Assembly (NCBI GenBank): GCA_012271265.1
Contig: JAAXGQ010000140.1
Span: 1 to 33,897, forward strand
Direction of reading: 5' to 3'
DNA length: 33,897 nucleotides
Source of the DNA: Vicinamibacteraceae bacterium
GTDB lineage: Bacteria > Acidobacteriota > Vicinamibacteria > Marinacidobacterales > Marinacidobacteraceae
Part shown: positions 129 through 30,744 of the stretch, in pieces
Layout: every line of letters begins with the position of its first letter
How positions within the stretch are numbered: position 1 is the stretch's first letter
Notes under the pieces: generated by a model
What the model saw: only the letters and a program-made list of their open reading frames with translations
What the model was told of the DNA's origin: nothing
Databases searched by the model: none
Made by a program: the position numbers and the translations under genes

Positions 129-619
129 GTGACACGCCGACACCTGCTCCCGACCTGACGAAGTTCGAGCGAACCCAGGCGGAACTCGACACCGTCCTGG
201 CCAGGCTGGAAGACCCGGAGGCGCCACTCCAGGAACGCCTCGCGCTTCATGTGCGGGCCGTCCGCCTCCAGGAGTTGCTGGAGGCGACGCTGGAAAGAGC
301 GCGGGAGACGCTGGAGGAACCGGTTGCGCCGCCCGGCGCCGCCCCCGATCCGGACTTCCCACAGGGTGCGGAGGAGCCCTACGAATCCGTGCTGGCGCGA
401 CTCGGGGACACCGTCAGGGAAATGACGAACCGGGAACTTCCCCTGGCCCGGGTGATCGAGCTGCGTCGGACGGCGCTCCGGCTTGTCGCCCGGTGCGAGT
501 CCATCCTCGCCGGCGTGCAGGAAGAACTCGACCGGAGCGCATCGGGATCGGACGCCGCGAGCCCCCCGGGGCCGCCTCCACCGGCCGTCCCCCCAAAGGG
601 CGATGAAGCCCCCTTCTGA
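125..619 (+). CDS. xseB: Exodeoxyribonuclease VII small subunit, tandem-duplicated
   Basis: XseB is the small helical subunit that binds the XseA tail to form exonuclease VII. The family is usually about 60-90 residues with one helical hairpin; this protein has 164. Residues 13-65 carry the standard pattern (FE..qaELd.vlarLEd...PLqErL, then a second helix ending in ARETLEE). Residues 84-137 repeat it: YESVLARLGDTV, then ELPLARVIELRRTALRLVARC and a final acidic helix. A Pro/Ala-rich linker separates the two copies, and a Pro-rich tail follows. The start overlaps the xseA stop by four bases (ATGA), which implies translational coupling. The family call is firm. That the second half is a true XseB repeat is my reading of the pattern. 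Confidence 0.88.
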   Translation: MSDTPTPAPDLTKFERTQAELDTVLARLEDPEAPLQERLALHVRAVRLQELLEATLERARETLEEPVAPPGAAPDPDFPQGAEEPYESVLARLGDTVREMTNRELPLARVIELRRTALRLVARCESILAGVQEELDRSASGSDAASPPGPPPPAVPPKGDEAPF

Positions 620-653
620 CCCGGGCCGGCTCCCCCTGCCTTCGTTCGGCCCC

Positions 654-690
654 ATGGAGCGCCGGCGTCCCCGCCGGCCTGCGCCGCACC
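654..690 (+). repeat. Solitary REP-like repeat between xseB and ispA
   Basis: The sequence ATGGAGCGCCGGCGTCCCC begins a copy of the end sequence of the repeat family found at 13.7 kb, 22.7 kb and 33.8 kb. It contains GGAG, then a 7-bp stem GCCGGCG (661-667), a TCCC loop, and CGCCGGC (672-678). Similarity to the larger element continues through CTGCGCCGCACC and then fades. The second, inverted end is missing, so this is a single end or a decayed copy. It starts 35 bases after the xseB stop. Confidence 0.75.
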
Positions 691-746
691 TTCATGCCGC
701 GCACCTCGGGACCGATGCGGGTGCGCGGTCGCCGTCGCCGGCGCCC

Positions 747-1691
747 GTGAACGCGCCGCCGTCCCACCCGGCCCCGACGGGCGGTCCTCTGGATGCGTTT
801 CTCCGGGACGGCGCCAGGCTGGTCGACGCCTTTCTCGACCAGGCGCTTCCATCCGGAGCCGACGACGCGCTGGCCGAAGCCATCCGGTATGCGGTCTTTT
901 CCGGCGGCAAACGGGTGCGCCCGGCGCTCGCCATGGCCTCCTCCCTGGCCGTGGGCGCCCCGGCCGGCGACGCCCTGCCGGCAGCAGGGGCGGTGGAACT
1001 GATCCACGCCTATTCGCTGATCCACGACGACCTTCCCTGCATGGACGACGATGACCTGCGGCGAGGGAAACCCACGGTGCACCGCCGCTACGGCGAGGCG
1101 ATGGCGGTGCTGGCGGGTGACGCCCTCCACACTCTGGCGTTCGGCATCCTGGCCGGGAGCGATGCCCCGGCGCCGATTCGGGTCGGCTGGATTCGGAGGC
1201 TTACCGCCGCGGCCGGCCCGGAGGGCATGGTCGGCGGTCAGGTCCTCGACCTGGCGGCGGAGAGCGCGCCCCCGGACGCCGCGGGGCTCGAGGCCATCCA
1301 CCGGGCGAAGACCGGCGCGCTGATCGGAGCCGCGGCGGCCATGGGCGCGATCGCCGGCGGGGCGTCCCGGGCGGATGTCGAGCGGCTCGAGAGGTTCGGT
1401 CGGGAGATCGGGCTCGTCTTCCAGATCGTGGACGACCTGCTCGACGAGGAGGAAACGACCGCCGCTCTGGGGAAGACCGCCGGCAAGGACCGGGCCCAGG
1501 GGAAGGCCACCTATCCGGCGATTCACGGCGCCGAGGCGGCCCGGGGCGAGGCGGAGGAGCGCGCCGAGGCAGCGGCTCACCTGTTGGAGGGACTCACCGA
1601 CCCACCGCCGGGCCCCGAGAGGGCGCGCGCGGCCGAAGGACGCGACGTGCTGGTCCGGCTCGCGGACCGGATCCTGCGGCGCCGTTCCTGA
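747..1691 (+). CDS. ispA: Polyprenyl (farnesyl) diphosphate synthase
   Basis: This enzyme makes farnesyl diphosphate from IPP and DMAPP/GPP for quinone, undecaprenyl and other isoprenoid synthesis in the cytoplasm. From the GTG at 747 it has 314 residues, close to E. coli IspA (299). It has GGKRVRP near residue 53, the first Asp-rich motif HDDLPCMDDDDLRRG near 93-107, and the second motif DDLLD near residue 227, followed by a GKTAGKD segment. The HAYSLIHDDLP context is typical of the bacterial FPP synthase type rather than long-chain synthases. The ORF is open upstream to ATG 603 and beyond, but that stretch translates the repeat at 654-690 into an Arg/Pro-rich peptide. I therefore prefer the GTG at 747, although no good Shine-Dalgarno precedes it. 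Confidence 0.9.
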   Translation: MNAPPSHPAPTGGPLDAFLRDGARLVDAFLDQALPSGADDALAEAIRYAVFSGGKRVRPALAMASSLAVGAPAGDALPAAGAVELIHAYSLIHDDLPCMDDDDLRRGKPTVHRRYGEAMAVLAGDALHTLAFGILAGSDAPAPIRVGWIRRLTAAAGPEGMVGGQVLDLAAESAPPDAAGLEAIHRAKTGALIGAAAAMGAIAGGASRADVERLERFGREIGLVFQIVDDLLDEEETTAALGKTAGKDRAQGKATYPAIHGAEAARGEAEERAEAAAHLLEGLTDPPPGPERARAAEGRDVLVRLADRILRRRS

Positions 1692-1783
1692 CCCGGGGAC
1701 CGGGCAGCCTTCCGTGGCTGCCCTGGATGTGGCCCGCGCCGGATAGGCTCCCGGTCGGAACAGGCAGGCGAGCGGAAGAGGAA

Positions 1784-2737
1784 ATGCCCGACAGCGGTGG
1801 CCATTTTCGCCGCTTCCGGCTGCCGGCCGGCCGCCCTCCGCGGGTCGGGATCGTGGCCAAGATCGCGGCGGCGGAGACCCGGGAGACGGTCCGGACCCTC
1901 GTCGGCTGGCTGGAGCGGCGCGGGGTCGAGGTCACGATGGAAGGCGCGCTCGCCGATGCCGCAGCCTGGCCGGGGCGGTCGGCTCCGCTCGCCGGGATCG
2001 GGACCGGCCAGGACTTCATCCTCCTCCTCGGCGGCGACGGGACGCTCCTCGCGGTCACCCGGGCCATGGGGGAAGACCAGCGCCCCGTTTTCGGGGTGAA
2101 TCTCGGAAGCCTGGGGTTTCTGACCCAGGCGCCTCTGGATCAGCTCTACACCGGTGTCGAGGCGATCCTTGCGGGCGAGGGAATCATCGATGGACGGGCG
2201 ACCCTGGCGGGGATCCTGGTGCGGAACGGGCGGGAGGTGGCGCGGCAGCACGCCGTGAATGACGTGGTGGTGACCGGCGGCGCCATCGCCCGCGTCATCG
2301 GGGTGCGCCTGAAGACCACCCAGGGCTTTCTCGCCAACGTGCTCGGTGACGGGGTGATCGTGGCGACGCCGACCGGCTCGACCGCCTACAGCCTCGGGGC
2401 CGGCGGCCCGGTCGTCGACCCCGCGGTCGAGGCGATCATCCTCGCTCCGATCGTGCCCCTGACGCTGACCCAGCGTCCGGTGGTCTTCTCCGATTCCGAA
2501 GAGCTTTCCCTGACGCTGCGGCCTCGGGGCGGTGAGGTGTACGTCACCTTCGACGGCCAGGCCAGCCACCCCTTCCGTCCCGGAGATGTCCTCCGCATCC
2601 GGAAGTCGCGGCGCCGCATCCGGATGCTGGGTGTCGGAGAACAGAACTATTTCCGGGTCCTCAGGAAGAAACTGCTCTGGAGCGCCCTGCCACCGAAGCG
2701 GGCTCCCGCCCGCCCCCCCATCCCGCCGCATCCGTAA
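1784..2737 (+). CDS. nadK: NAD kinase
   Basis: NAD kinase phosphorylates NAD to NADP with ATP or polyphosphate in the cytoplasm. The 317-residue product shows the catalytic GGDGTLL motif, then NLGSLGFLT, the NDVVV segment, and the NAD-binding motif TPTGSTAYSLGAGGP, with the following PIVPLTL block in the usual place. All hallmark motifs are intact. The ATG at 1784 is preceded by GGAAGAGG, a usable ribosome binding site, so I take it over the GTG-type start 57 bases upstream. It follows ispA after 92 bases on the same strand, probably in one transcription unit with xseA-xseB-ispA. The C-terminal Pro/Arg-rich tail is not conserved. Confidence 0.96.
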   Translation: MPDSGGHFRRFRLPAGRPPRVGIVAKIAAAETRETVRTLVGWLERRGVEVTMEGALADAAAWPGRSAPLAGIGTGQDFILLLGGDGTLLAVTRAMGEDQRPVFGVNLGSLGFLTQAPLDQLYTGVEAILAGEGIIDGRATLAGILVRNGREVARQHAVNDVVVTGGAIARVIGVRLKTTQGFLANVLGDGVIVATPTGSTAYSLGAGGPVVDPAVEAIILAPIVPLTLTQRPVVFSDSEELSLTLRPRGGEVYVTFDGQASHPFRPGDVLRIRKSRRRIRMLGVGEQNYFRVLRKKLLWSALPPKRAPARPPIPPHP

Positions 2738-2751
2738 GCCGGCCTTCCGGC
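2738..2751 (+). terminator. Short hairpin between convergent nadK and beta-barrel gene
   Basis: Directly after the nadK stop, GCCGG-CCTT-CCGGC forms a 5-bp GC stem. There is no T-run, so an intrinsic terminator of the E. coli type is not shown. It lies in the 33-base gap between convergent genes and could act for both. Confidence 0.3.
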
Positions 2752-2770
2752 GCCGTGGGTCTTCGCGGAC

Positions 2771-3577
2771 TCAGCGGAGGCGACCGACGCGGACGGTGAC
2801 CCCCATGGTCAGCGCCGACACGATCGCGGCGCCGCCAGCCCCTTCGGCGAGGTGCAGGGCGCCTTCACCGCCCGGATAACCGAGACGGCGGTAGTCGAAG
2901 GCCAGCGACACCGGAATGGTCGGGAACGGCACCTTGAGGCCGACTCCGAACATGGCAGCCCCGGTCCGGAACTCGTCGCCTCCCTCCACTTCCGAGTTGC
3001 GCCAGCCGTAGCCGACGACGGCATAGGGTGTCATCGCCGCCAGCGGCAACTGGGCCACGAGGGCCAGGGAGAGTTCCCGGCTTTCCTGCAGCAGCGGTTC
3101 GAGCAGAAACGTCCCTGCTTCCTCATCGGTCACCGAGAACTCGAAGGCCGTGGTGGTGCGGGTGTAGCTGGCCTCGACGCCGAGGTACTGGACGGCGAAC
3201 AGGCTGGCCCGCGCCCCGTAGTGCTCGCCGAACCCGACGTCATCCGCCTCCGCGGAAACCGTCTGGAAGATGTTCCGGGCGAAGCCCAGATCCTGGTCCA
3301 CGAGCTGGCTCCCCACCAGCAGGGACCCCTCGAGCCGGGTCCAGCTGCCGCCCCGCCGGAAGACCGCACCGTCCGGGACCCCGGCCTGTCTCGAAGCTCT
3401 TGGAAAGAGTGCTTCCTCGGGCGCTCTCTCGAGAACGGCCGGGGCTCCGGGTTCGGCTTTCCGGGTCGCCGCGGATTTCGGTTCCGCGGAGCCGCCGCAG
3501 GCTTCCGGCTCGCTGGCGGCTGGGCCCGCCACGCTCGCCATCAGCAGCGCGGCCAGACCCAGCCGCCTCGAACTCAC
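2771..3577 (-). CDS. Predicted outer-membrane beta-barrel protein
   Basis: The 268-residue product starts with a signal peptide (SSRRLGLAALLMASVAGPAAS), followed by a low-complexity Pro/Ala/Glu segment to about residue 60. The rest alternates short amphipathic strands and turns, with motifs such as LFAVQYLGVEASYT, TPYAVVGYGWRN and GVGLKVPFPTIPVSLAFDYR, and ends in VTVRVGRLR. This is the pattern of small OmpA/OmpW-like barrels that sit in the outer membrane. The GTG start at 3577 overlaps the TGA of the upstream metalloprotease by four bases (GTGA), so the two are probably translationally coupled. The specific function is unknown. An adhesin, porin or anchor for its co-transcribed partners are all possible. 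Confidence 0.72.
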   Translation of the reverse strand: MSSRRLGLAALLMASVAGPAASEPEACGGSAEPKSAATRKAEPGAPAVLERAPEEALFPRASRQAGVPDGAVFRRGGSWTRLEGSLLVGSQLVDQDLGFARNIFQTVSAEADDVGFGEHYGARASLFAVQYLGVEASYTRTTTAFEFSVTDEEAGTFLLEPLLQESRELSLALVAQLPLAAMTPYAVVGYGWRNSEVEGGDEFRTGAAMFGVGLKVPFPTIPVSLAFDYRRLGYPGGEGALHLAEGAGGAAIVSALTMGVTVRVGRLR

Positions 3578-4605
3578 GGACGGACCTCGATGCGCACATT
3601 GGGAGCGTTCCGGCCGATGAGCGGCACCAGACTCGGGGCCACCGTGACCGAAAAGTCCTGATCCACCAGCCAGGGAAGGAAGAAGTACGCGAACGTGCTG
3701 TGATCGGGCGGGATGGGATTCACCCGGAGGATGTAGTGGCCATCGGCGAGTCCCCCCACTTCGAAGTTTCCGCTCTCGTCCGTCCAGGCCCCGACCAGAA
3801 CGCCGCGAACCGGGTCGTACACCGTGACGTGCGCGCGGCGGACTCCCTCGCCCGAACCCGCCCGGACGACCGTCCCCCGAATCACTCCCGTTTCGGCGCC
3901 TGGGCCCGGGTACAGGACCGAGGCCCCGGTCACGTCGTCGTCGGTCAACGCGCGCCCCAGGGACTTTCCCGCCCCGTGCGAGAACGGCCACATCACCGCC
4001 GAGCCCTCGAGGACCGAACCGTCCACGATCCTGCCCACGTTCGAATGGCCGAGCCCCAGGAAGTGACCCACTTCGTGCGTCAGCGTGCTGCGGAGGTCCC
4101 ATCCCCCGGCGCGCTCCGGGTCATTGGTCCAGTTCAGCGAAGGATTCACCAGGATGTCCGACTCGATGATGCGGCCGGTCTCCGCGTCGGTAAGCCAGGT
4201 CGTCACTCCGAGCGTCCTCGGCGAGAGTCCGAGCTCCGCCATGTGCTCTCGGGTGGTGAATCCAATGGTGTTCGTGGCGTCGAACGCGTCGAACGGCCTC
4301 TGGTTCGTAAGTCCCTGATAGGAAAAGGAAATCCCGACCTGGGCAGAACTCTCCCACTTCGCAAACGCGGCGCGCGTCTCCGTCGCGACCTCCTCGACGC
4401 TCATCCGGTAGTGGGCCATATTGGCCACCCAATAGCCGACCGGCTGTTCGGAGGCCGGCCAGACGAAGCCGTGTCCCCCGTACAACTGATAGGCGCCGGC
4501 TTCGTGAAGTCCGCCGGCGATCACGAGGCCGGCCGAGAGCGACAGAGCGACGCGCCACGCCCTCCTGCGCCTCGCGCCGGGGAACGGGTCGCGATCCGGA
4601 TCCAT
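3574..4605 (-). CDS. Secreted matrixin-like zinc metalloprotease with C-terminal Ig-like/CarboxypepD_reg domain
   Basis: The 343-residue protein has a basic start and a hydrophobic signal segment (residues 17-33). A metzincin catalytic domain carries the extended zinc motif HEVGHFLGLGH (H177, E178, H181, H187) and a downstream Met (SAVMWPF, M205) placed like the Met-turn. Residues 240-296 (VIRGTVVRAG through DGHYILRV) resemble a carboxypeptidase-regulatory beta-sandwich. It should cleave proteins outside the inner membrane. The substrate is unknown. ATG 4605 is the first start that puts the signal peptide at the N-terminus, and it lies 23 bases after the stop of the upstream secreted protein. 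The downstream beta-barrel gene overlaps it by four bases. Confidence 0.85.
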   Translation of the reverse strand: MDPDRDPFPGARRRRAWRVALSLSAGLVIAGGLHEAGAYQLYGGHGFVWPASEQPVGYWVANMAHYRMSVEEVATETRAAFAKWESSAQVGISFSYQGLTNQRPFDAFDATNTIGFTTREHMAELGLSPRTLGVTTWLTDAETGRIIESDILVNPSLNWTNDPERAGGWDLRSTLTHEVGHFLGLGHSNVGRIVDGSVLEGSAVMWPFSHGAGKSLGRALTDDDVTGASVLYPGPGAETGVIRGTVVRAGSGEGVRRAHVTVYDPVRGVLVGAWTDESGNFEVGGLADGHYILRVNPIPPDHSTFAYFFLPWLVDQDFSVTVAPSLVPLIGRNAPNVRIEVRP

Positions 4606-4628
4606 GGGCTGCTGGTGGATCCAGGCCC

Positions 4629-5222
4629 TCAAATGGGCCGAAGGGCGCTCCGAACCAGCGCCCGAACCTCTTCCAGGGAAACGCGCCCTCGCGGCGACGC
4701 GGATTCGTGCGGAACGTCCGCGCCGTCCCGGCTCCTCAGGGTCAGGCCGAGAAGGGAGCGACGCAGGGTTGGCTCGCCGGTGCGCGGATCCTGATCGAGG
4801 CTGAACTTGCCGGCGGCCAGCCCGAGCACGCCTGGAATGCGGCCGGCTGCGCCCTCGGAGAACACGAGCACCCGCTCTCCGAGTTCGAATCGGGGCGATC
4901 CGGGCACCACGAGGCGGTATCCCTCCGCCTCGCCCCCCAGGATCCGGAGGGTGACCATGCGCCGCCCGCGCCGCTCCCCCTTCAGGAATTCGTCCACCTC
5001 GATCGTCACGAACGTGTGGATGGAGTTCCGGCGCACTGCAACCTGCGCCCGCATCCCCACGACCTCTCCAATCAGGATCTGGTCGGCGGCGACGGCCATC
5101 TCGGGGAGCGTCTGGTACAGGACCGTGGAGCCCGCGCCCAGCCCGGGGAGCGCCAGGGCCAGCGCCGCGAAACCCACCAGGCGCCCGGGGCCCCACCGGG
5201 CGGCACACCACATTCCGCGCAT
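4629..5222 (-). CDS. Exported protein of unknown function, first gene of metalloprotease operon
   Basis: The 197-residue product begins MRGMWCAARWG and then a hydrophobic stretch (VGFAALALALPGLGAGS) that looks like a signal peptide. The mature part starts TVLYQTLPEMAVAADQILIGEVVG and continues as predominantly beta structure, with VTIEVDEFLKGE and a VPGSPRFELGERVLVF segment. Similar exported proteins are, to my knowledge, often encoded beside matrixin-type proteases in Acidobacteriota and myxobacteria; that is memory of context, not a family match. It could be a binding or inhibitory partner of the protease, which is inference. ATG 5222 is used; a second in-frame ATG lies at 5213. No catalytic motif is visible. 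Confidence 0.68.
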   Translation of the reverse strand: MRGMWCAARWGPGRLVGFAALALALPGLGAGSTVLYQTLPEMAVAADQILIGEVVGMRAQVAVRRNSIHTFVTIEVDEFLKGERRGRRMVTLRILGGEAEGYRLVVPGSPRFELGERVLVFSEGAAGRIPGVLGLAAGKFSLDQDPRTGEPTLRRSLLGLTLRSRDGADVPHESASPRGRVSLEEVRALVRSALRPI

Positions 5223-5232
5223 CAGCTGCCGG

Positions 5233-5238
5233 AATCTA
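5233..5238 (-). promoter_or_regulatory. Putative -10 hexamer (TAGATT) for the exported-protein operon
   Basis: On the minus strand TAGATT ends 10 bases before the ATG at 5222. No clear -35 is seen 16-18 bases upstream. The spacing would give a leader of only a few bases, matching several other genes in this window. Confidence 0.4.
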
Positions 5239-5302
5239 GCAGAACGGGCCTCCTCCTCCCGGCGCCGGTCCGGCAGGGCCGGAGTGGCAGGATTCCGCTC
5301 CC

Positions 5303-6376
5303 ATGGCGGCGTCCCCGACCCCGAAAACCGCGCCGCGCCCCGCCGTGCCGGAGCGGGGGACAGTCGTGCGGGTCACCCGGCGCGAGACGACGGCCCGACT
5401 GTCCGACGGCTCTGAGGCGGGACGGCTGATCCGCTGTGCGGTGGGTGGCCGACTCTTCGGGCGTTCGCGGAACAAGGCCGCCGCCGCGGCGCTCGTGGTG
5501 GGGGACGAGGTGGCGGTCGAACGCCTCGCGGTCGAAAGAGGCCGGACGAGGCGGCGGCACCGGAGTCGGCGGTCGCCGGAGGGGCGGATCACCGAGGTGC
5601 TTCCCCGTCGGAACGAGCTGAGGCGGACCGTCGGCCGGGTCGGGCGACGGGAGACGCGAACCTTCGCCGCCAACCTCGACCTCTTCTTCATCGTCTCGGC
5701 CTTTCGCGCCCCTCCGTACCGCACCGGATTCCTCGACCGCGCGCTGGTCGTGGCCTTCGACGCCCGGGTCACCCCCGCGCTCGTCTTCAACAAGGTGGAT
5801 CTGGCGGACGCCGACGACGTGAAGCGTCTTCGCCGGGATCTGGCTGGCTACGGCAGTCTGGATCTGGACGTTCATGTCACCAGCGCCCTCGGCGGTGACG
5901 GTCTCGCGGCGTTTCGCGCCGCGGCGTCACGGGGCCGCTCCGTACTGTTCGGTCACTCCGGAGTCGGCAAGACGGAGCTTCTCGCCGCCCTCGGCATCTC
6001 GGGGCGCCGGAGCAGAGCACTGGATCGGCGCGGACGGGGTCGGCACACGACCACCGGCGCCGAGATCGTTCCGCTGCCTGGCGGGGGGGAGATCGTGGAC
6101 ACGCCGGGGGTGCGCGCCCTTGGCCTCGACGGCCTGACGGCGGCCGAGGTGCGGGCGGCGCATCCCGACGTCATGGCCCATGCCGACGGATGCCGTTTCG
6201 CCGGCTGCTCCCACGAGAGCGAGCCGGACTGCGCCGTGAAGCGGGCCGTGGCCTCCGGCGCCGTCGCGCGGAGTCGCTATGAGAGCCTCATCACACTGAG
6301 TGCCGAGGCCGCGGGGCTGGAAGCCGGACGGACGCCTTCCGGGCCCGGTAGGGAGCCGCCACCGGCATCGGAATGA
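5303..6376 (+). CDS. rsgA: Small ribosomal subunit biogenesis GTPase RsgA (YjeQ)
   Basis: RsgA is a circularly permuted GTPase that checks late maturation of the 30S subunit. The 357-residue product has an N-terminal OB-fold-like region (about 18-105), then the G domain in permuted order: NKVD (163-166) before the P-loop GHSGVGKT (217-224), a GRGRHTTT switch I (244-251) and DTPG (266-269). The zinc-binding tail has C297, C302, H304 and C310 (CRFAGCSHESEPDC), as in the family. The N-terminal region is Arg-rich (RTRRRHRSRR at 81-90), consistent with rRNA binding. It is divergent from the exported-protein operon. Its last 86 bases overlap the 3' end of hflX on the other strand. Confidence 0.96.
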   Translation: MAASPTPKTAPRPAVPERGTVVRVTRRETTARLSDGSEAGRLIRCAVGGRLFGRSRNKAAAAALVVGDEVAVERLAVERGRTRRRHRSRRSPEGRITEVLPRRNELRRTVGRVGRRETRTFAANLDLFFIVSAFRAPPYRTGFLDRALVVAFDARVTPALVFNKVDLADADDVKRLRRDLAGYGSLDLDVHVTSALGGDGLAAFRAAASRGRSVLFGHSGVGKTELLAALGISGRRSRALDRRGRGRHTTTGAEIVPLPGGGEIVDTPGVRALGLDGLTAAEVRAAHPDVMAHADGCRFAGCSHESEPDCAVKRAVASGAVARSRYESLITLSAEAAGLEAGRTPSGPGREPPPASE

Positions 6377-8009
6377 GCCGGGCCACGGCAGCGAGCACCT
6401 CGTCGACGCCCTCCCCGGTCCTCGCCGAAACGGGTATGGCCTCGGCGCCGGCGAAACGGTCCGGAAGCGCCGCCTGCACCGGGCCCGGAAGCCGATCGGT
6501 CTTGTTCAGCAGTGTGACGCGGGGGATCCCGGAGAAACCCAGAGTCGCGAGAAGGCCCTCCACCGCATCGGCGCGGGCCTCGCGGCGGGGGTCCGCCGCG
6601 TCGACCACGTGGAGGAGCAGCGACGCCGCCGAAATCTCCTCGAGCGTGGCGCGAAAGGCGTCGATCAGGTCCGACGGAAGGTCCTGGATGAAGCCCACGG
6701 TGTCCGAAAGCAGCACTTCGCGCTCCACCGGCACCCGAAGCCGGCGGTTCGCCGGGTCGAGGGTCTCGAACATCCGGTTGCCGGCGGCAACACGGCTGTG
6801 GGTCAGGCGGTTGAGCAACGTGGACTTCCCCGCGTTCGTGTACCCGACCAGCGAAACGACCGGGACGCCTCGGGAATCCCGAAGACGCCGCTGAATGCGG
6901 CGCTTCACCGCCACCGCAGCCAGGTCCCGCCGCAGCCGGGCGATACGCGCCCGCACCCGCCGGCGATCGACCTCGAGCATCGTCTCCCCCGGCCCGCGCC
7001 CGCCAATGCCGCCCCCCAATCGCGACAGCGACGGGTCCCGGCCCACCAGCCGGGGCAGCCGATAGCGCAGCTGGGCGAGTTCCACCTGAATCCTGCCGTC
7101 CCGGCTGCGCGCGCGGCGGGCAAAGACGTCCAGGATGAGCTGGGTGCGGTCGAGCACCTTGAGATCGGTGGCGCGGGCGATGTTTCGGGCCTGGGCCGGA
7201 CTCAGATCGCGGGAGAACAGGATCACGTCGGCGCCCCGGTCGAGCGCCCGGATCACCAGCGCCCGCAGCTTTCCCTTGCCGACCAGGGTCCGGGGATCGA
7301 GACGGGGACGACGCTGCTGCACCGCATCCACCACGACCAGACCTGCGTCGCGCGCAAGTTCGCCCAGTTCCTCGACCCGCTCGTCGAGCGGCTCGCCGCG
7401 CGCCGCCACGCCTACCAGGATGGCCCGCCCCGAGTAGCCGCGTCGGGGCCGACGGGGTTCCAGCCGGGCGAGCTCCTGCTCCAGCCCGGCCACCAGCTCC
7501 TGGCAATCGACGGCAATCCGGCTTGGCGGGGCCGGGGGGATGAGTTCCCACGGCGTTTCGTCCGGCGGCCTCGGAGCGCCCGGCCTCGTCGGAGGTCGGA
7601 TGTGGGCCGCGTGAACCAGGAGCGGCAGGCCGCCCTCGTCCACCGTGATCGCCGCGATCAGATCGAGCCGGAGGAGCACCAGGTCGGCCAGGTCGTCCCG
7701 CGTCAGCGGCTCCCCCGCCAGGTGGGTGTGGAGAAAGCGCAGACCGCGGAGGCGGACGCCCGCGGCCCGCTGACGCTTCAGATCGGGGAGCTCGATCTGC
7801 CGGGCGTCGCCGACCCCGACCCAGCGGACCGCGCCGCTCCGGTCCACCAGCACGCCGACCTGCCGCCGGATCCGGCGCGACAGGGCGGAGAGGCGGCGGG
7901 CGAAGTCCTGCGGAACCACGACGGCGCGGGGGAGCCGCCGACCGTGGAGCCGTTCGAGGGCCCGGCGATCGCGGGCCTTCAGGCCCGCGGTCTCACCTCC
8001 GACCCGCAA
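6291..8009 (-). CDS. hflX: GTPase HflX with long N-terminal extension
   Basis: HflX is a ribosome-splitting and rescue GTPase acting on the 50S subunit. The 572-residue product has an HflX N-terminal domain (RTLVGKGKL near 240-248, then [11 protein letters not shown] and [13 protein letters not shown]), the [12 protein letters not shown] linker (332-342) and the G domain: GYTNAGKST (389-397), DTVGF (436-440) and NKTD (502-505). An extra 150 or so residues at the N-terminus (GETAGLK through [10 protein letters not shown]) match the extended HflX form I know from several deep-branching Gram-negative groups. The TTG at 8009 is chosen because an in-frame stop lies at 8037-8039 and it is the only start codon between that stop and the conserved GETAGLK motif. 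Confidence 0.95.
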
Positions 8010-8036
8010 GCCGGCCGGGCCGGTGGATGACGGACG

Positions 8037-9248
8037 TCAGCGCGACGGTCCGCCTCGGAGGTCCCGACTCTCCAGAAGAAGGTCGAGCTTGGCGCGCGCC
8101 GAAATGAAGTTGGGGTCGATGCGGATCGCTTTCTGGTACTCCTCCATCGCCTTCTCCTCGTCTCCCAGCTTCAGGAGCGTTTCCCCGAGGAAAAACCGCG
8201 CGTCGGCCATGTCGCGTTTCTTCGAGAGGGCGCGACGGAAGAACCCGACGGCCTCGTCGTAGCGCTGCTCGTGGTAATGGAGAACGCCGAGGTGATAGTG
8301 GACGTAGGCGTTGGAGTCATCGTTGCGGGCCGCCAGCTTGAACTCCTCGATGGCCCGGTCCACGTCGCCCTGGGCGTAGTGGGCGCTCGCCAGGTTCGCG
8401 CGCGCTTCGGTGAATTCCGGCTGCAGCTCGAGGGCGAGTTCGTACTGCTCGATCGCGTCGTCGACTCGTCCCCGCCGCTTGTAGGCGACGCCGAGGTTGT
8501 TCCGGGCGCGGTTGAACGAGGGACGGATCGAGAGCGCGAGCTCGTACATCTCGATCTCGCGGGCCAGCGGGTCGAAGCCGCCTTGGTCGGCGAGGGCCTC
8601 GGCGAAGTAGCCGTAGAGGAAGCCCTGGTTGTTGTAGAAGTTCGAGATCGCCTCGAAGTCGTCGATGATCCGGGCGCCCCCGTACTCCCGTTCGGGCGTC
8701 GCGGTGAAGTCGACGAAGATGAGGTCCGGACCGTCCTTGATCCCGCCGGTGATGTGCCCGCTGTTCACGATGACCTCGGCCTCCTTGGAGACCCGTTCGA
8801 TCGTTTCCACGTCCACGTAGATCGCCTCGACGCCAACCGCCCGGGACATGCCGACGAACAGGTTCGTGTAGGCGAGGCAATTGCCGCGTCCTTCGCGGTA
8901 GACATCCTTCGCGGTCTTGTTGGACAGCCAGTCGTAGGAGATGGCGCCGCCGGTGTGGTGGCGGATGGCCCGCACGATGGCCCGCATCTTTTCCTTGTCG
9001 GTGCGCAGGTTTTCGGTCACCCGGAAGGCCAGTTCGCGGATCTCGTCGTCGATCTCGAACGGGATCTCGACCTGCGCCAGCATCTCCGGTGTGATCCGGT
9101 GGTTCAGGTCGGCACGGATCTCTTCGACCGACCAGGTGCGCTTGGGAGCGGTCCCGCACGCGGCAAGAAGGAGCGCGGGAGCCAGGAAGACCGGCAACCC
9201 GAGGCGCAGCCAATGCGGCCCGGAGCCGGGGGGTCTTGTGAAACGCAT
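8037..9248 (-). CDS. Lipoprotein with transglutaminase-like domain and TPR repeats
   Basis: The 403-residue product has a signal peptide ending in a lipobox (LLLAACG), so it is probably a lipid-anchored periplasmic or outer-membrane protein. Residues about 85-210 look like a transglutaminase-like fold with a candidate Cys-His-Asp set: Cys in GRGNCLAYTNLF, His in VNSGHI, Asp in VDFTATPE. About five TPR units follow, with signatures such as ARNNLGVAYKRRGRVDDAIEQY and ANLASAHYAQGDVDRAIEEF. Such proteins commonly scaffold envelope complexes or handle cell-wall peptides. The exact role here is not known. It ends 27 bases before the hflX start and lies in the same direction, so co-transcription is likely. 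Confidence 0.85.
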   Translation of the reverse strand: MRFTRPPGSGPHWLRLGLPVFLAPALLLAACGTAPKRTWSVEEIRADLNHRITPEMLAQVEIPFEIDDEIRELAFRVTENLRTDKEKMRAIVRAIRHHTGGAISYDWLSNKTAKDVYREGRGNCLAYTNLFVGMSRAVGVEAIYVDVETIERVSKEAEVIVNSGHITGGIKDGPDLIFVDFTATPEREYGGARIIDDFEAISNFYNNQGFLYGYFAEALADQGGFDPLAREIEMYELALSIRPSFNRARNNLGVAYKRRGRVDDAIEQYELALELQPEFTEARANLASAHYAQGDVDRAIEEFKLAARNDDSNAYVHYHLGVLHYHEQRYDEAVGFFRRALSKKRDMADARFFLGETLLKLGDEEKAMEEYQKAIRIDPNFISARAKLDLLLESRDLRGGPSR

Positions 9249-9256
9249 CGAAATCG

Positions 9257-9262
9257 AGTATA
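9257..9262 (-). promoter_or_regulatory. -10 element TATACT directly before the TPR lipoprotein
   Basis: TATACT on the minus strand ends 8 bases before ATG 9248. A weak -35-like TTTTCC lies 16 bases upstream of it. A start site about 7 bases downstream of the -10 would fall at or next to the ATG, giving a leaderless message. No Shine-Dalgarno is present, which agrees. Confidence 0.55.
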
Positions 9263-9535
9263 GCGCCGTCGCGCGGCAGGAAAATGCGGCGCCTCGCAGT
9301 CGGAATCGGAGGTGTTCCGACCCGCGCCGGGTGCGGGCTGGTTGCTCCGTTTTCGGACGCGAACCGGGAGCCTCCGCACTGCGGCGCGGACGACCCCCGA
9401 TCCGCCTCGAACGCGCCGGAAAGGGAAGAATTCGTCTGGCCCAACGACGGATCCCGTCCCCCGGTTCCCTCCCGAACGGGCGTCGTTTTCGATTCGCCTG
9501 GCCGGCGGCGCCGCCGCCCTCGAGGCGCCCAACGT

Positions 9536-9564
9536 TTGCGGGGCGGCCCAGCCAAGCGTATTCT
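9536..9564 (+). promoter_or_regulatory. Sigma70-type promoter for the GWxTD operon
   Basis: TTGCGG (9536-9541) and TATTCT (9559-9564) are separated by 17 bases, the optimal spacing. Transcription would start near 9571, leaving a leader of about 80 bases before ATG 9652. The region is AT-richer than its surroundings. Confidence 0.5.
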
Positions 9565-9651
9565 TCCGCTTCACTCTTCTCCACTGGAACATGCGGGACC
9601 GGTTCGGGGCGGCAGCCTGGCTCCATTGCCGTTCCGCCAAATGGGGGTCCC

Positions 9652-11241
9652 ATGCCTGAGCCATTCCGGGGTCGTTCCCCGTCGCCCTTCCCCTTCGCCC
9701 TGCTGGCCGTCGCGCTGGCGGTTCCGGCGCTCGCGCAGGAGAACCTGAGCCGGGGCGACCGCCGCTTCCTCGAGGAAGTCGAGCCGATCATGACCGCCCA
9801 GGAGCGGCAGATCTTCGCCGAGATCGATCGCGGTGACCGGGGCAAATTCCAGGACCTGTTCTGGGCGCGGCGGGACCCCACCCCGACGAATCGGCGCAAC
9901 GAGGCGAAGGATCAGTTCGAGAACTGGACCGAACAGGCCGACGATCAGTTCGGGAGGCGCGGACAGAGGGGTTCGCGGACGGACATGGCGCTGGTCATGC
10001 TGCTGCTCGGTCCGCCAGACAACCAGGAGCGCGTCGGGGGACGGGGCGGCGGACCTGGCGGCGCGCGGCCTCCCGCCGGCGCGACCGGCAACAACCCGCT
10101 GCAAAGCAGCGGGGGCGCACCCGGCGCGGGCGCCGGCCCCGGCGGGGGTGGCGGTGGCGGCGGCTTCGGCGGCCCCGGCGGCGGTGGCCTGAAGATGACC
10201 TACGTCCCGAATCCCACCCGGGGGCTTCCGGACGGGCTGGAGCTGGAGTTTCGGGCCACGCAGATGGGCCTCCGCCTCGTCCGGAGCGACGAGATCGAAG
10301 CTGCGCTGGAGCGCGCCCGCCAGCGACAGATCGCCTGGCCGAGCATCAACTACGCCCGGGACGAGGACGGACGCCTGCGGGACCTCGATGACCTCTTCGA
10401 TCCGAACAGTCCGGCGAAGCAGATCCTGAACGCGCTGCGGGACGGCGGCGAGCCAAGCACCGACATCGGGCTGACTCCCGACTTCCTCTTCTTCCGTTCC
10501 AACACGAACGACACCTACGTCGCCGCCGTCGTCGAGGTGGCCGGGGACACCATCGACTGGAGCGGCGACACGGCGGACGCACAGGTCTTCTACAGCGTGG
10601 AGGACGCGCTGGGAACGGTGATCGGACAGGCCGAGGAGAACGTGCAGCTCCAGCGGGGCGAGAACGGGGACGCGGTCCTGGAACTGCCGATGCAGATGCC
10701 TCCGGGCGCCTACACCCTCCGCCTCGGCCTCCGCGACACGGAGACGGACTCCCACGGCTCGATGAACCTCACCGTGGAGGCGCCCGACTACACCGGCGGT
10801 GAGCTCGTGCTCTCCTCGCTCGCCCGGTTCTCCGACGGCAGCCGGGTGGAGGACTTCACCCCGGTGCCCGGCCGGGCGCTGCTCGTGGGCGGCTTCCACT
10901 TCATCCCCAAGGTGTCGCCGGAATACGAAGCGGGCGGCGATCTGCGGGTGGTCTTCAACGCCTATGGCTACGCCTTGGACGGCGAGACAGCCGGCCTGAC
11001 GTGGCAGATCACGTTCACGAAGGACGGGGAGCAGGTCCTCCGCTACAACCCCTCCCCGTTCCAGTTGTCGTCGCCGGAACTGGCGATCGCCATCGTGGAC
11101 GTCCCCCTCGCGCGGCTGTTCCAGGACGGGCGGCGGGAGCCGTTCGAGGCCGGCTCGTACACGGCGGAAATCACCGTGCGTGACACGGTCGGCGGCGGCT
11201 CGGTGACCGAGTCCGTGACCTTCGAGGTGTCCGGCTCCTGA
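9652..11241 (+). CDS. Secreted GWxTD-domain protein with glycine-rich insertion
   Basis: The 529-residue product has a signal peptide (FALLAVALAVPALAQ, cleavage near residue 28-29). The N-terminal domain follows the GWxTD pattern known from Acidobacteriota, Gemmatimonadota and Bacteroidota: EPIMTAQERQIFAEI, FWARRDPTPTNRRNEAKDQF, then the signature region GSRTDMALVMLLLGPPD, where the usual GWxTD reads GSRTD. Residues about 126-181 are a glycine-rich, low-complexity insertion. The C-terminal half is a predicted beta-sandwich (LELPMQMPPGAYTLRLGLRD, EAGSYTAEITVRDTV). Family function is not established; it is extracytoplasmic. It heads a unit with the S41 homologue and mltG, which suggests envelope work. 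ATG 9652 is chosen because it places the signal peptide at the N-terminus. Confidence 0.82.
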   Translation: MPEPFRGRSPSPFPFALLAVALAVPALAQENLSRGDRRFLEEVEPIMTAQERQIFAEIDRGDRGKFQDLFWARRDPTPTNRRNEAKDQFENWTEQADDQFGRRGQRGSRTDMALVMLLLGPPDNQERVGGRGGGPGGARPPAGATGNNPLQSSGGAPGAGAGPGGGGGGGGFGGPGGGGLKMTYVPNPTRGLPDGLELEFRATQMGLRLVRSDEIEAALERARQRQIAWPSINYARDEDGRLRDLDDLFDPNSPAKQILNALRDGGEPSTDIGLTPDFLFFRSNTNDTYVAAVVEVAGDTIDWSGDTADAQVFYSVEDALGTVIGQAEENVQLQRGENGDAVLELPMQMPPGAYTLRLGLRDTETDSHGSMNLTVEAPDYTGGELVLSSLARFSDGSRVEDFTPVPGRALLVGGFHFIPKVSPEYEAGGDLRVVFNAYGYALDGETAGLTWQITFTKDGEQVLRYNPSPFQLSSPELAIAIVDVPLARLFQDGRREPFEAGSYTAEITVRDTVGGGSVTESVTFEVSGS

Positions 11242-12586: not shown

Positions 12587-13648
12587 GTGGCGGCCGGAGC
12601 GTGGCGCCGGCGCCTCATTCCGGGGCTCGCCATCCTCCTGGGCGCTGTCGGCGCCGCAGCGGGGGCCTGGCAGGTGTTCCACGTCGCTCCGCTCGAGCAG
12701 GAACTGCGAACGCCGTTCCGGGACCATGGCGGCGAGGTGATGTTCCGCGTCGGCGCCGGATCGACGGCCCGCGCGGTCGCTGAGCGACTCGAGGCCTCGG
12801 GCATCGTCGCGAGCCGCCGGGTCTTTCTCTACGGAGTGCGGGCCGCCGGAGTGGAGGCCGGGCTGCAGGCGGGCCTCTACCGGTTCGATGATCCGCTGAC
12901 GCCCGCCGAGGTCGTTCGCCGGATCGCGGACGGCGTGGTGGCCACCCTGCGGTTCACGCTCCCCGAGGGACTCGATCTGGATCAGACCGCGGATGCGCTG
13001 GCGACGCAGGAGGTCGGCGGGGCCGACCGGCTTCGGGAGGCCTTTCGCGACCCTCGCCTGACCCGCGAACTCATGGGCGATCTCGATCCGGAGGCGGAGA
13101 CGCTGGAGGGCTACCTCTTCCCGAGCACCTACCGGATCCCGCCGGAGACTTCAGCGGAAGGCGTCGCGCGCCTCCTCGCCGAGCAGTTCGCGGCACTCTG
13201 GACTCCCACGCGGCGCGCCTCGGCCGCTCAGCGCGAACGCTCGATCCGGGAGATCGCGACCCTGGCCTCGATCGTCGAAAAGGAGACCGGGGATCCGGCG
13301 GAGCGGCCCCGGGTGGCTTCCGTGTTCTGGAACCGGCTGCGCATCGGCATGCCGCTCCAGACCGATCCGACCGTGCTCTACGCCATGCGCCGCACGGGGA
13401 ACCAATCGGGCAACATCCGCCGCGCGGACCTCGAACTGGAATCGCCCTGGAACACCTACCGGGTCCGAGGCATTCCCCCCGGGCCGATTTCCTCGTTCGG
13501 CGTGGCGGCGCTCGACGCCGTCCTCGCCCCGGAGCAGACGAACTTCCTCTACTTCGTCTCCCGCAACGACGGCACCCATGTCTTCAGCCGCTCGCTGCGA
13601 GAACACAATCGCGCCGTCCGCCGCTGGCAACCCCGCATCACCCGCTGA
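12587..13648 (+). CDS. mltG: Endolytic murein transglycosylase MltG
   Basis: MltG cleaves nascent peptidoglycan strands at the outer face of the inner membrane. The 353-residue product has one N-terminal membrane segment (LIPGLAILLGAVGAAAGAW, 10-28), a LysM-like region (VGAGSTARAVAERLEASGIV, 55-74) and the YceG catalytic domain: EGYLFPSTYRI (174-184), LASIVEKETGDPAERPRVAS with the catalytic Glu at 231, and GMPLQTDPTVLYA (254-266). The NTYRVRGIPPGPISSFG motif follows as expected. The GTG start is 3 bases after the stop of the S41 homologue, so the two are tightly coupled. The repeat array begins immediately after this gene. Confidence 0.95.
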   Translation: MAAGAWRRRLIPGLAILLGAVGAAAGAWQVFHVAPLEQELRTPFRDHGGEVMFRVGAGSTARAVAERLEASGIVASRRVFLYGVRAAGVEAGLQAGLYRFDDPLTPAEVVRRIADGVVATLRFTLPEGLDLDQTADALATQEVGGADRLREAFRDPRLTRELMGDLDPEAETLEGYLFPSTYRIPPETSAEGVARLLAEQFAALWTPTRRASAAQRERSIREIATLASIVEKETGDPAERPRVASVFWNRLRIGMPLQTDPTVLYAMRRTGNQSGNIRRADLELESPWNTYRVRGIPPGPISSFGVAALDAVLAPEQTNFLYFVSRNDGTHVFSRSLREHNRAVRRWQPRITR

Positions 13649-13695
13649 CCTCCCCGGCGAGAGCGCCGGACCACCGCCCTGAGGACACCGGCCCC

Positions 13696-13848
13696 ATGGA
13701 GCGCCGGCGTCCTCGCCGGCCTGCCCCGCACCCTCCGTCCCTCAGACAGTCTCCTGCCGGCCGCGCCGCCGTGCCTGCGGACCGATGGCCGGGAGACCCA
13801 CGGACCGTGCCCGCCTCCGGCGGTGGCCGGTGAGGACACCGGCGCTCC
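13696..13848 (+). repeat. BIME-like element, copy A
   Basis: A 153-bp unit bounded by imperfect inverted repeats of about 24 bases. The left hairpin is GCCGGCG (13703-13709)-TCCT-CGCCGGC (13714-13720). The right end carries GCCGGTG-AGGA-CACCGGC. The core includes CAGACAGTCTCCTGCCGG and CCCACGGACCGTGCCCGCC. Confidence 0.9.
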
Positions 13849-13897
13849 AGAGGCGCGGTGGCCGGTGAGAGCGCCAGCCCCATGGAGCACCAGCCCC

Positions 13898-14050
13898 ATG
13901 GAGCGCCGGCGTCCTCGCCGGCCTGCCCCGCACCCTCCGTCCCTCAGACAGTCTCCTGCCGGCCGCGCCGCCGTGCCTGCGGACCGATGGCCGGGATGCC
14001 CACGGACCGTGCCCGCCTCCGGCGGTGGCCGGTGAGGACACCGGCGCTCC
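13898..14050 (+). repeat. BIME-like element, copy B
   Basis: 153 bp and nearly identical to copy A; differences include GGGATGCCC for GGGAGACCC in the core. The near-identity suggests a recent tandem duplication. Confidence 0.9.
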
Positions 14051-14099
14051 AGGCGCACGCTGGCCGGTGAGAGCGCCAGCCCCATGGAGCACCAGCCCC

Positions 14100-14214
14100 A
14101 TGGAGCGCCGGCGTCCTCGCCGGCCTGCCCCGCACCCTCCGCCTCTCAAGCAGTCTCCTGCCCACCGCGCCGCCGTACCGACGCACCGTGGGCCGGCGAG
14201 GACGCCGGCGCTCC
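14100..14214 (+). repeat. BIME-like element, copy C, internally deleted
   Basis: Same left end as copies A and B, but only 115 bp to the right end (GGCCGGCGAGGACGCCGGCG), so about 38 bases of core are missing. Two further right-end fragments follow to about 14290. Confidence 0.85.
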
Positions 14215-14341
14215 AGGCGAGCGGTGCCCGGTGAGGACACCAGCGCTCCAGAGGCGCGGTGGCCGGTGAGGACACCGGCGCTCCAGGCGAGCAGTGGCCA
14301 TGATCCGTGACCAGGGTCATCTGGTGCGCTCCCGGCGAAGG

Positions 14342-21259: not shown

Positions 21260-21352
21260 GCCGTGGGGAAGGTAGCACCGGGACCGGCATCCCGGCGCGG
21301 CCCCGAAACGCCGGATCGACGCGCCGCCCGGATCCCCCGACCATCACCTCGC

Positions 21353-22621
21353 ATGACCAGCAAGCCCGGCGTCCCCACCGCGAAGCAGGCGCTCCTGGTC
21401 TTCCTGGCCGCCTTCCTGGGCATTCTTGGGGTTGGTGCCGGACTCAACTGGATCGGGGCGCCGCTGGCCGTTTCGGTTCTGGCGGTCCCGGGGGTCACCC
21501 TGTTCGTCGCCGTCGCGGCGATTCGCGTTTTCCGTCTCGACCCGTACCGCGTCTTCCTGTTGCGGCCGGCGAAGAACGCCCACCTGTTGCTTGCTTTCCC
21601 GGTCGCGCTGGCGCTCTTCGTGGTGAGCGACCAGTTGGCGAACCTGAGCCGGTCCCTGATCCCGCTCGACGAGGGCGTCCTCGAGGCGGCGGCGCACCTC
21701 GTCCGGGCGGAGACCCTGTTCGACTGGGTCGTGCGGCTCGCAGGCATCGGATTCGGGGCCGCGGTGTCGGAAGAACTGCTCTTCCGGGGCGTCCTCCTGT
21801 CGGGCCTCAGCCGGCTCGGCCGCGTGGGGGCGATTCTCGTGACCGCCCTCCTGTTCACCGCCGGTCACGGCCTCCTCCTTCCCAACTACTTCGTGGCCGG
21901 CGTCGTGCTCGGAGTCGCGGCCGCGGCCACCGGCAGCATCCTGGTGCCGATCGCCGTCCACTTCTTCCACAACATCACCGCGCTGCTCCTGTTCAACCTC
22001 TCCCGGATCGAGACCCTGGGTGACCCGCTGTGGACCCCGCCCGGCATCCTGGTCCCAGCCGTCCTGATCCTCGCCCTCGGGTTGGGAGTGTGGATCCGGC
22101 ACGGCGTCAAGCGGTGGCGCAACGCGCATCCGGCCGAGTCCGAGGGGCCGGCGGCGGCGGAGATTCCGGCGCCGCCGCCGGAGTCGTTCAGTCTCGCGCG
22201 CGACCTTCGGTTTGTCCCCCGGAAGCGCCGGACCATGGGCTTTCTCGTCCTCGCCATCGCGATGGCCGCCGGAATCCTGACCGTGACCGGGCTGTTCGGC
22301 TATCTCGGCTACATGGCCAACGGCGAACCGCAGCGCGCAGCCATGATCGAGTCCCTGCAGCGGATTTCGCACGACGCGCTCGCGCCCGCCGCCGCGGAGC
22401 GGAGCGCCGAGATCGACGCCGCGTTTCAGACCCTGAGCGAGTTGAACCGCGAGGGTCGCCTCGGGCTGCGCCACATCTGGCGGACCGCCCGCGTCGTCGG
22501 CCTCGCCACCGTGGACGGCGCGTTCGACGAGGCCGATGTCGAGGACCTGCTCATGACCGTCGGAGGCGTCCGCTCGGAGCAACCCGGAAGCACCGCCCTG
22601 CCATCCCCCACCCGAGAGTGA
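21353..22621 (+). CDS. CPBP family intramembrane metalloprotease
   Basis: This is a polytopic membrane protein of 422 residues with about eight hydrophobic segments. It contains the CPBP (CAAX protease/bacteriocin-processing) motifs: E140-E141-x3-R145 (SEELLFRG), H172 (LLFTAGHG) and the HFFHN motif (H203, H206). These residues form the metal site in the family. After a cytoplasmic Pro/Ala-rich linker (about 255-285), another membrane segment (MGFLVLAIAMAAGILTVTGLFGYL) and a helical tail of about 90 residues follow, an addition to the usual domain. ATG 21353 is preferred over the GTG at 21263 because the extra 30 residues are Arg/Pro-rich. Substrate is unknown. Array 2 of the repeat begins about 30 bases after its stop. 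Confidence 0.86.
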   Translation: MTSKPGVPTAKQALLVFLAAFLGILGVGAGLNWIGAPLAVSVLAVPGVTLFVAVAAIRVFRLDPYRVFLLRPAKNAHLLLAFPVALALFVVSDQLANLSRSLIPLDEGVLEAAAHLVRAETLFDWVVRLAGIGFGAAVSEELLFRGVLLSGLSRLGRVGAILVTALLFTAGHGLLLPNYFVAGVVLGVAAAATGSILVPIAVHFFHNITALLLFNLSRIETLGDPLWTPPGILVPAVLILALGLGVWIRHGVKRWRNAHPAESEGPAAAEIPAPPPESFSLARDLRFVPRKRRTMGFLVLAIAMAAGILTVTGLFGYLGYMANGEPQRAAMIESLQRISHDALAPAAAERSAEIDAAFQTLSELNREGRLGLRHIWRTARVVGLATVDGAFDEADVEDLLMTVGGVRSEQPGSTALPSPTRE

Positions 22622-22677
22622 AGCCAGGGAAGCCTGGCGCGCGCCCGCCTGAAGCACCGGTGTCCTCACCGGTCGAC

Positions 22678-22830
22678 ATGGAGCGCCGGTGTCCCCACCG
22701 GCCACCGCCGCAGCCGGGCATGGTCCGTGGCCGTCCCGGCCCACGGTTCGTCGGTACGGTGCCGCGGTCGGCACCAGACTGCCCAAGGGACCGACGGCGC
22801 GCCGCAGGCCGGCGAGGACGCCGGCGCTCC
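22678..22830 (-). repeat. BIME-like element, copy D
   Basis: 153 bp in inverse orientation to array 1. The end hairpin is GCCGGTG (22685-22691)-TCCC-CACCGGC (22696-22702), a compensated version of GCCGGCG/CGCCGGC. The other end is GGCCGGCGAGGACGCCGGCG. Confidence 0.88.
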
Positions 22831-22934
22831 ATGGGACCGGCGCTCCAGACGTCAGGGCGCGCCAGTCTCGGAGCGCCGGTGTCCCCACCGGCCACCTCCC
22901 CATGTTGCGCCGGCATCCTCGCCGGCCACCCCCC

Positions 22935-23087
22935 ATGGAGCGCCGGCGTCCTCGCCGGCCATCGCCGCAGGCGGGCATGGTCCGTGGGCCTCCCGGCCCA
23001 CGGTTCGTCGGTACGGTGGCGCGGTCGGCACGAAACGGCCCAAGGGAACGACGGTGCGCCGCAGGCCGGCGAGGACGCCGGCGCTCC
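22935..23087 (-). repeat. BIME-like element, copy E
   Basis: 153 bp and very similar to copy D. Its first end is the GCCGGCG-TCCT-CGCCGGC version, so the hairpin arms changed together relative to copy D. Confidence 0.88.
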
Positions 23088-23190
23088 AGGGGGCCGGCGC
23101 TCCAGACGTCAGGGCGCGCCAGTCCCCGAGCGCCGGTGTCCCCACCGGCCACCTCCCCAGGAGCGCCGGCATCCTCGCCGGCCACCCCCC

Positions 23191-23246
23191 ATGGAGCGCC
23201 GGCGTCCTCGCCGGCCACCGCCGCAACCGGGCATGGTCCGTGGGCC
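23191..23246 (-). repeat. BIME-like element, copy F, truncated
   Basis: Only the first end and about 30 bases of core (CGGGCATGGTCCGTGGGCC) remain before the similarity stops. Confidence 0.8.
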
Positions 23247-29958: not shown

Positions 29959-30744
29959 ATGGCCGACCGCGCCGACCGCTACGAGCTCTACGAAGCCGCC
30001 GTGCAGGACGCGCCGGGGGACGCGGAGTTCCTCGACGACGAGTTCTTCCGGCGCCGGGGGCGGCGGGCCGACTCGTTCCGCGAGGATTTCTGCGGGACCG
30101 CGGCTCTCGCCTGCGAGTTCGCCCTGCGCCGACCCGGGAGCCGGGTCTACGCGATCGATCGGGATCCGGTCCCGCTGGAGTGGGGGCGGGAGCGTCATCT
30201 GCCGCGCCTCGACCGCGAAGCGCGGGAGCATGTCCGGCTCGTCGAGTCCGATGTACTCGACTGGGAAGGGCCGGCGGTGGACCTGATCGCCGCGATGAAT
30301 TTCAGTTACTGGATCTTCGAGACGCGGGAGATGCTGCGGAGGTACTTCGAGCAGGCGCGCCGGGCGCTGCTGCCGGACGGGCTGTTCTTTCTTGACGCCT
30401 ACGGGGGCTCGGACTGTCACGAAACGAAGGAGTACCCCCGCCGGGAGCAGGGCTTCGTCTTTGTCTGGGACCAGGTCTCCTACGACCCCATCACCGCCCA
30501 TATGGAGTGCGCGATGCACTTCGACCTCCCCGACGGAAGCCGGCTGGCGAACGCCTTCCGCTACGCGTGGCGATTCTGGTCGCTGCCCGAGATCCGGGAA
30601 TTGCTGGAGGAGGCGGGCTTCCGCCGGACGTTCGTCCTCTGGGAAGGCGCCGACGAGAACGGCGACGGCAACGGCGTCTTCGAGGAGGTCGAGGCCGGCT
30701 CCCCGGACCCCACCTGGATCGCCTACCTGGTGAGCGAGCCCTGA
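29959..30744 (+). CDS. Class I SAM-dependent methyltransferase
   Basis: The 261-residue product has a Rossmann methyltransferase core. Motif I is represented by REDFCGTAALACEFA, followed by the acidic end of strand 2 in SRVYAIDRDP, then VRLVESDVLDW and the motif IV-like DLIAAMNFSYWIF. LLPDGLFFLDAYGG is post-motif III. A sheet-forming C-terminal half (YDPITAHMECAMHFDLPDGS, YAWRFWSLPEIRELLEEAGF) completes the domain. The substrate is unknown. ATG 29959 is used; a TTG at 29911 would add an Arg-rich segment. It lies 56 bases before recQ and may be co-transcribed with it. Confidence 0.87.
   Translation: MADRADRYELYEAAVQDAPGDAEFLDDEFFRRRGRRADSFREDFCGTAALACEFALRRPGSRVYAIDRDPVPLEWGRERHLPRLDREAREHVRLVESDVLDWEGPAVDLIAAMNFSYWIFETREMLRRYFEQARRALLPDGLFFLDAYGGSDCHETKEYPRREQGFVFVWDQVSYDPITAHMECAMHFDLPDGSRLANAFRYAWRFWSLPEIRELLEEAGFRRTFVLWEGADENGDGNGVFEEVEAGSPDPTWIAYLVSEP

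Follow-up and report, generated by a model that had tools for sequence, protein, structure and literature searches.

A RAYT/REPIN system with a variant GG[AT]NC tag in a Vicinamibacteraceae genome and its relatives

The repeats in the window, by which we mean the whole 33,897-nt stretch analysed here, the entire contig C261 of a Vicinamibacteraceae genome, belong to a RAYT/REPIN system whose tag, GG[AT]NC, is a new variant. We class them as such a system because the enzyme, the repeats flanking its gene and the arrangement of the repeats in doublets are those of RAYT/REPIN systems; the tag departs from the known pattern, and we therefore speak of a variant. In place of the tetranucleotide GT[AG]G 5' of the hairpin, GGAGC is kept in 134/146 sampled copies from this genome (GTAGC in 2/146), and GG[AT]NC is found in relatives. 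Very probably, the repeats are REPs, mostly joined in inverted doublets (REPINs or BIMEs), that are kept and spread by a single-copy RAYT encoded on contig C268.

REPs and REPINs in the window and its genome

Direct reading of the sequence gives the basic unit. On the plus strand, GGAG (13698-13701) and a C (13702) make up the GGAGC tag or foot (13698-13702), followed at 13703-13720 by a hairpin, also recovered by folding, with the 7-bp stem GCCGGCG/CGCCGGC and the loop TCCT. The minus strand of 13826-13848 reads GGAGC, GCCGGTG, TCCT and CACCGGC, i.e., the same motif in the opposite orientation with a second stem type; 13698-13848 is therefore one 151-bp inverted pair, with ~105 bp between the plus REP (13698-13720) and its minus partner. 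As a single strand, this whole unit folds into one long hairpin (z = -5.1). A further hairpin, GCCGGTG-TCCC-CACCGGC, is read at 22685-22702. The original prediction described each end as GGAG followed by a 7-bp stem and a 4-base loop, which is borne out, and noted that REPs of enterobacteria and pseudomonads pair up as inverted BIMEs, an arrangement also seen in this doublet and in the spacing of copies in the genome (see below).

A motif scan allowing mismatches identified 19 copies of the motif (the tag GGAGC and a hairpin with a 7-bp stem and the loop TCC[T/C]) at four places, 19/19 of them intergenic, with placement relative to genes assessed in this window only. A single plus-strand REP (656-678) lies between the genes for the exonuclease VII small subunit and a polyprenyl synthetase. 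The gap between the YceG and enoyl-ACP reductase genes holds the doublet described above, a second REPIN 202 bp downstream (13900-14050, both strands) that is 97% identical to it, and a diverged third unit (14102-14284) with one plus-strand REP (14102-14124) and three on the minus strand (14192-14214, 14227-14249 and 14262-14284). Between the genes for an Rce1-like protease and a GCS2/CBS protein are the REPIN with the variant hairpin (22680-22830, both strands), two single plus-strand REPs (22870-22926; 22870-22892 and, with a degenerate tag, 22904-22926), a second REPIN (22937-23087, both strands) and three tandem plus-strand REPs (23127-23215; 23127-23149, 23160-23182 and 23193-23215). The fourth place (33766-33897, plus strand), after a RecQ/MoCF-domain gene, comprises a REP at 33766-33788 and the beginning of a REPIN truncated by the contig end, which falls inside a repeat unit. 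The gene before it (30507-33755, plus strand) is a single ORF joining a RecQ-type helicase (DEAD, Helicase_C, RQC, HRDC and HTH_40) to a MoCF/CinA-like domain, either an unusual fusion or a read-through. Further, several reading frames run uninterrupted through the repeats, which creates spurious long ORFs such as those at 13549-14085 and 21344-23218 (both minus strand); the products of such ORFs (with AGEDAGAPW, WSAGVLAG and ERRRPRRP) are likely contaminants of protein databases.

A genome-wide scan tolerating up to two mismatches recovered 758 + 712 = 1,470 REP copies; the reversed pattern, used as a control, yielded 3 + 4 = 7. A loose 18-bp pattern yielded many chance matches in this GC-rich genome and was hence replaced with a stricter motif, which gave 153 matches in 228 kb as against 0, 1, 0, 0 and 0 in second-order Markov controls; the sampled stretches were chosen partly for repeat content, so the rates are biased upward. 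Outside the stem, conservation is highest in the tag GGAGC and in the TCC of the loop, AT or CT usually precedes GGAGC, and T is found at -6 in 88% of copies. Within the sample, 15/153 REPs stand alone, the spacing of plus-minus neighbours peaks at 122-125 bp and that of minus-plus neighbours at 67 and 83 bp. The two stem types, GCCGGCG/CGCCGGC and GCCGGTG/CACCGGC, occur one of each at opposite ends in 23/29 pairs. Thus, apart from the GT[AG]G tetranucleotide, both the defining features of a REP (a short hairpin in hundreds of intergenic copies, intergenic as checked in the window) and those of a REPIN or BIME (two inverted REPs at a fixed spacing) are present. Many contigs of this genome terminate in or beside a REP (the window at 33862-33897; C9, C10, C14, C15, C18, C21, C26 and C38), and the repeats therefore probably break the assembly.

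The joint change of the two stem types on both arms, noted in the original prediction, extends over the sampled copies: among those picked without regard to pairing at the variable stem position, the pair is C-G in 101, T-A in 39 and mispaired in 6, i.e., paired in 140/146 copies versus 85.5 expected from the column frequencies. Within this genome, the double change may represent one or a few events. In the relative G001, 39/50 copies are paired versus 17.3 expected. For the comparison across species, sites were re-picked by tag and loop alone, because a count of pairs in hairpins already selected as perfect would be circular. Of such sites beside related RAYTs, 129/155 have a 3' arm complementary at 6/7 positions or more, with 37 different stems; of those more than ~2 kb away from the RAYTs, 5/20 do. 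Covariation between genomes is not down to one or a few events. Significant covariation over many copies, on which the original prediction was staked, is thus seen within the genome and across species.

The RAYT gene and its cognate repeats

Exactly one Y1_Tnp (Y1/HUH) gene is present in the 3.4-Mb assembly, which at 87.65% completeness could miss a second RAYT; it lies on contig C268 at 3570-4295. The original prediction had proposed that a RAYT might serve the repeats and that a single-copy Y1/HUH gene of this type, flanked by the same repeat, should be sought; the genome does possess such an HUH enzyme, with the repeat on both of its flanks. By sequence, its product is classified as a RAYT by the curated model NCBIfam NF047646 (85 bits versus a cut-off of 80), which 52/52 members of RAYT set A2 also match. 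Domain annotation found Y1_Tnp as the sole domain, with a conserved HUH motif (NHVH) and Y motif (YIRRNP, of the form YxxxNP). The predicted fold has a mean pLDDT of 87, and its closest PDB entry, by sequence as well as by fold, is 4er8, the E. coli RAYT with a bound REP hairpin, followed by IS200/IS605 transposases, these fold matches having moderate TM-scores of about 0.5-0.6. The protein thus combines the HUH motif, the catalytic tyrosine in YxxxNP and a predicted Y1 fold, as is characteristic of RAYTs.

Eight REPs lie upstream of the gene (3016-3532, at most 520 bp away) and four downstream (4394-4703, at most 405 bp away), and the motif scan found no copies at 148-3015 and 4704-10260 of the same contig. 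Of random repeat-free intervals as long as the RAYT locus, 0.04% are flanked on each side by a copy no more than 200 bp away, a conservative control because the sampled stretches favour repeats and bias the rates upward. The gene is thus flanked by the REP family that it would serve, as in a REPtron. In the family, 10/10 genomes examined have a RAYT homologue and repeats, with 1-3 diverged RAYT copies each, some of them fragments; with the one copy in the window's genome, this is the single or low copy number of RAYTs and not that of an amplified IS.

The repeat adjoining the RAYT varies by species. In G008, the RAYT is adjoined by GGAACGCCGGTCTCCGACCGGCAC, of which this genome holds 257 copies and other genomes 0-28. 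The RAYTs of G004 and G005 are adjoined by GGAGCGCCGGCCTCCGGCCGGCAT, which numbers 188 copies in G004 and 219 in G005; the count falls to 47-89 in the remaining congeners and to 0 outside the genus. The version found in the window has 1,377 copies in its own genome and 1 match in 118 other genomes of the class. Hence, which version is enriched in a genome can be predicted from the one adjoining its RAYT, and nothing links the enzyme to the repeat more strongly than this matching species by species. As a separate observation, in one genus (g3) a second small hairpin (e.g., CGCGGCCGCAGGCCGCG) adjoins the REP in the inner part of the REPIN (L189 11602-11805 and L183 6318-6540).

Phyletic spread and mobility

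Relatives of this RAYT were found in 71/396 genomes of the phylum (E <= 1e-15) and, in a species-genome scan, also in records titled Acidobacteria, Thermoanaerobaculia, Verrucomicrobia, Chloroflexi, Bacteroidetes and others. A significant inverted repeat surrounds the RAYT at 89 loci, which are not all independent because some records are identical or closely related. At 75 of them, versus 7.3 expected, this repeat contains a hairpin of 6 bp or more, mostly with the tag GG[AT]NC and a TCC-like loop. Tagged hairpins occur at 58/106 examined loci of the clade that includes the RAYT on C268. Comparison of residue 95 of the RAYTs with the bases of the tag revealed no clear correlation.

As RAYTs are mostly single-copy, movement of the repeats is inferred from their copy number and the matching of versions. 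Two orthologous intergenic sites carry a whole REPIN in some congeners and lack it in others. At the second, congeners without the REPIN retain a remnant of the tag, so deletion is no less plausible here than a new insertion, and given such remnants the presence or absence of the REPIN at the two sites does not prove insertion. The insertions of whole REP-RAYT-REP units are stronger evidence, for mobility of the RAYT unit itself. Such a unit lies in frame inside homologous HmaB-type (DUF1156) methyltransferase genes at two different positions (L081 1-3540 in G132 and L082 1-3540 in G174; L071 811-3558 in G083), with each homologue intact where the other is interrupted, and inside a type III DNA methyltransferase gene (L070 67-3552 in G141). 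We take these in-frame REPtron insertions to indicate that some RAYT genes do move. The search of the phylum genomes also recovered further RAYTs within long open frames, of about 900-1800 aa.

We consider it moderately likely that these systems form a RAYT/REP branch found in numerous phyla (among them Acidobacteriota, Verrucomicrobiota, Chloroflexota and Bacteroidota), in which the RAYTs recognize a GG[AT]NC tag and a TCC-like loop in place of GT[AG]G, the stem drifts freely with each RAYT tracking that of its repeats, and REP-RAYT-REP units are mobile as a whole, including in frame into phage-defence methyltransferase genes.

Proposed mechanism, alternatives and known systems

The TnpA_REP proteins of E. 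coli and Stenotrophomonas bind single-stranded REP hairpins, require the tag and cut at CT sites, with the tag being the guide for cutting in at least one case (PMC8266576). Based on this in vitro behaviour, we propose that the RAYT would bind the tagged hairpin as single-stranded DNA via the GGAGC tag and the TCC loop, that its tyrosine would cut beside the tag, and that it would move or copy the doublet once the strand is exposed. By analogy, GGAG is predicted to retain the A3-G4 that would pick CT.

The shared protein fold, a weak match to the IS200 model NF033573 and the REP-RAYT-REP units inside host genes of some relatives could also suggest that an ordinary IS200/IS605 element, with the Y1 gene as its transposase, left the repeats behind as its decayed ends (MITEs). 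This is very unlikely: with that model the protein reaches 22.5 bits, where 55 are required, while passing the RAYT model, its Y motif is YxxxNP and not the YxxxQ of class 1 (PMC6006769), the gene is present once here and in 1-3 diverged rather than many identical copies per family genome, and the repeats form hundreds of intergenic inverted doublets. That the hairpins are instead selected RNA or DNA elements (terminators, mRNA-stabilizing elements, gyrase or nucleoid sites) among which a RAYT merely landed would agree with their stability in folding, with the intergenic position of all copies in the window and with the co-option of known REPs for such roles (PMC6006769). We regard it as very improbable, since it leaves unexplained both the enrichment of the version adjoining each RAYT and the tagged hairpins at RAYT flanks across phyla; moreover, the window has no Rfam match, and it is the loop and tag that are conserved, with the T run absent.

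The incompleteness of the genome and the inferred role of the RAYT leave some room for another enzyme spreading the repeats, with the Y1 gene as a passenger. The independent association of the RAYT clade with tagged hairpins, and of RAYT loci with inverted hairpin repeats, renders this extremely improbable. Readings as uptake signals or Rfam-type elements were rejected, as the repeat changes genome by genome with the RAYT and no Rfam match exists in the window.

Among known systems, the Group 3 RAYT/REPINs of Pseudomonas and Stenotrophomonas (Quentin subclass 2.5) resemble the one described here in several ways: the hairpin is short and perfect, 1-2 bases separate it from its 5' tag, inverted doublets occur in hundreds of copies, and each family has one cognate, single-copy RAYT with flanking repeats; the P. 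putida REP TGTGGGAGCGGGC resembles the form TGGGAGCGCGGGC of the window's relatives. However, the tag of Group 3 is GT[AG]G and its HUH motif DH[LF]H, as opposed to GG[AT]NC and NHVH in a protein ~50 aa longer. The E. coli system (group 2), whose RAYT is the best match by sequence and fold among solved structures, likewise has two REP types (Y and Z) at opposite ends of its BIMEs, but its REP has a long bulged stem and a GTAG tag. In the tag-binding region, W94 and R104 of the E. coli RAYT are kept, whereas E100/H101 are replaced by D/R and Q95, which helps contact the tag, is mostly M in the RAYTs compared here. Quentin subclasses 2.4 and 2.7 share NHVH, W-x and YI-x-x-NP but have long REPs with GT[AG]G, and class 3, which also occurs in Acidobacteria, differs in its foot, CnGA, and in its Y motif, which is of the EQ type. 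The Acidobacteria TIRYTs (mostly subclass 2.1; PMC3733652) are also Y1 transposases flanked by inverted repeats, some in multi-copy families; membership was rejected, as the GGGGWSAS shared by their repeats is absent on inspection and the protein lacks their C-terminal HTH or any other domain beyond Y1_Tnp.

The original prediction held that GTAG or GGAG defines REPs. The accessible papers do not support this for GGAG: the tags they give are GT[AG]G (PMC2817692, PMC6006769), GTAG and CGTC (PMC3733652), with CnGA as the class 3 foot (PMC6006769). PMC12306157 lists palindromes of three Acidobacteriota, RAYTs being outside its treatment. We found no description of a GG[AT]NC tag in the accessible literature, and an earlier one may exist among subscription papers or preprints.

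The GG[AT]NC tag widens the known repertoire of REP tags. To our knowledge, only a few RAYTs, all with one tag (GTAG), have been assayed so far. In the dozens of enzyme-repeat pairs described here, tag and loop hardly vary but the stem differs entirely (37 stems), so that stem specificity is directly testable by swapping. The REP family also accounts for the heavily repeated sequence that breaks assemblies and makes spurious proteins in these metagenome genomes.
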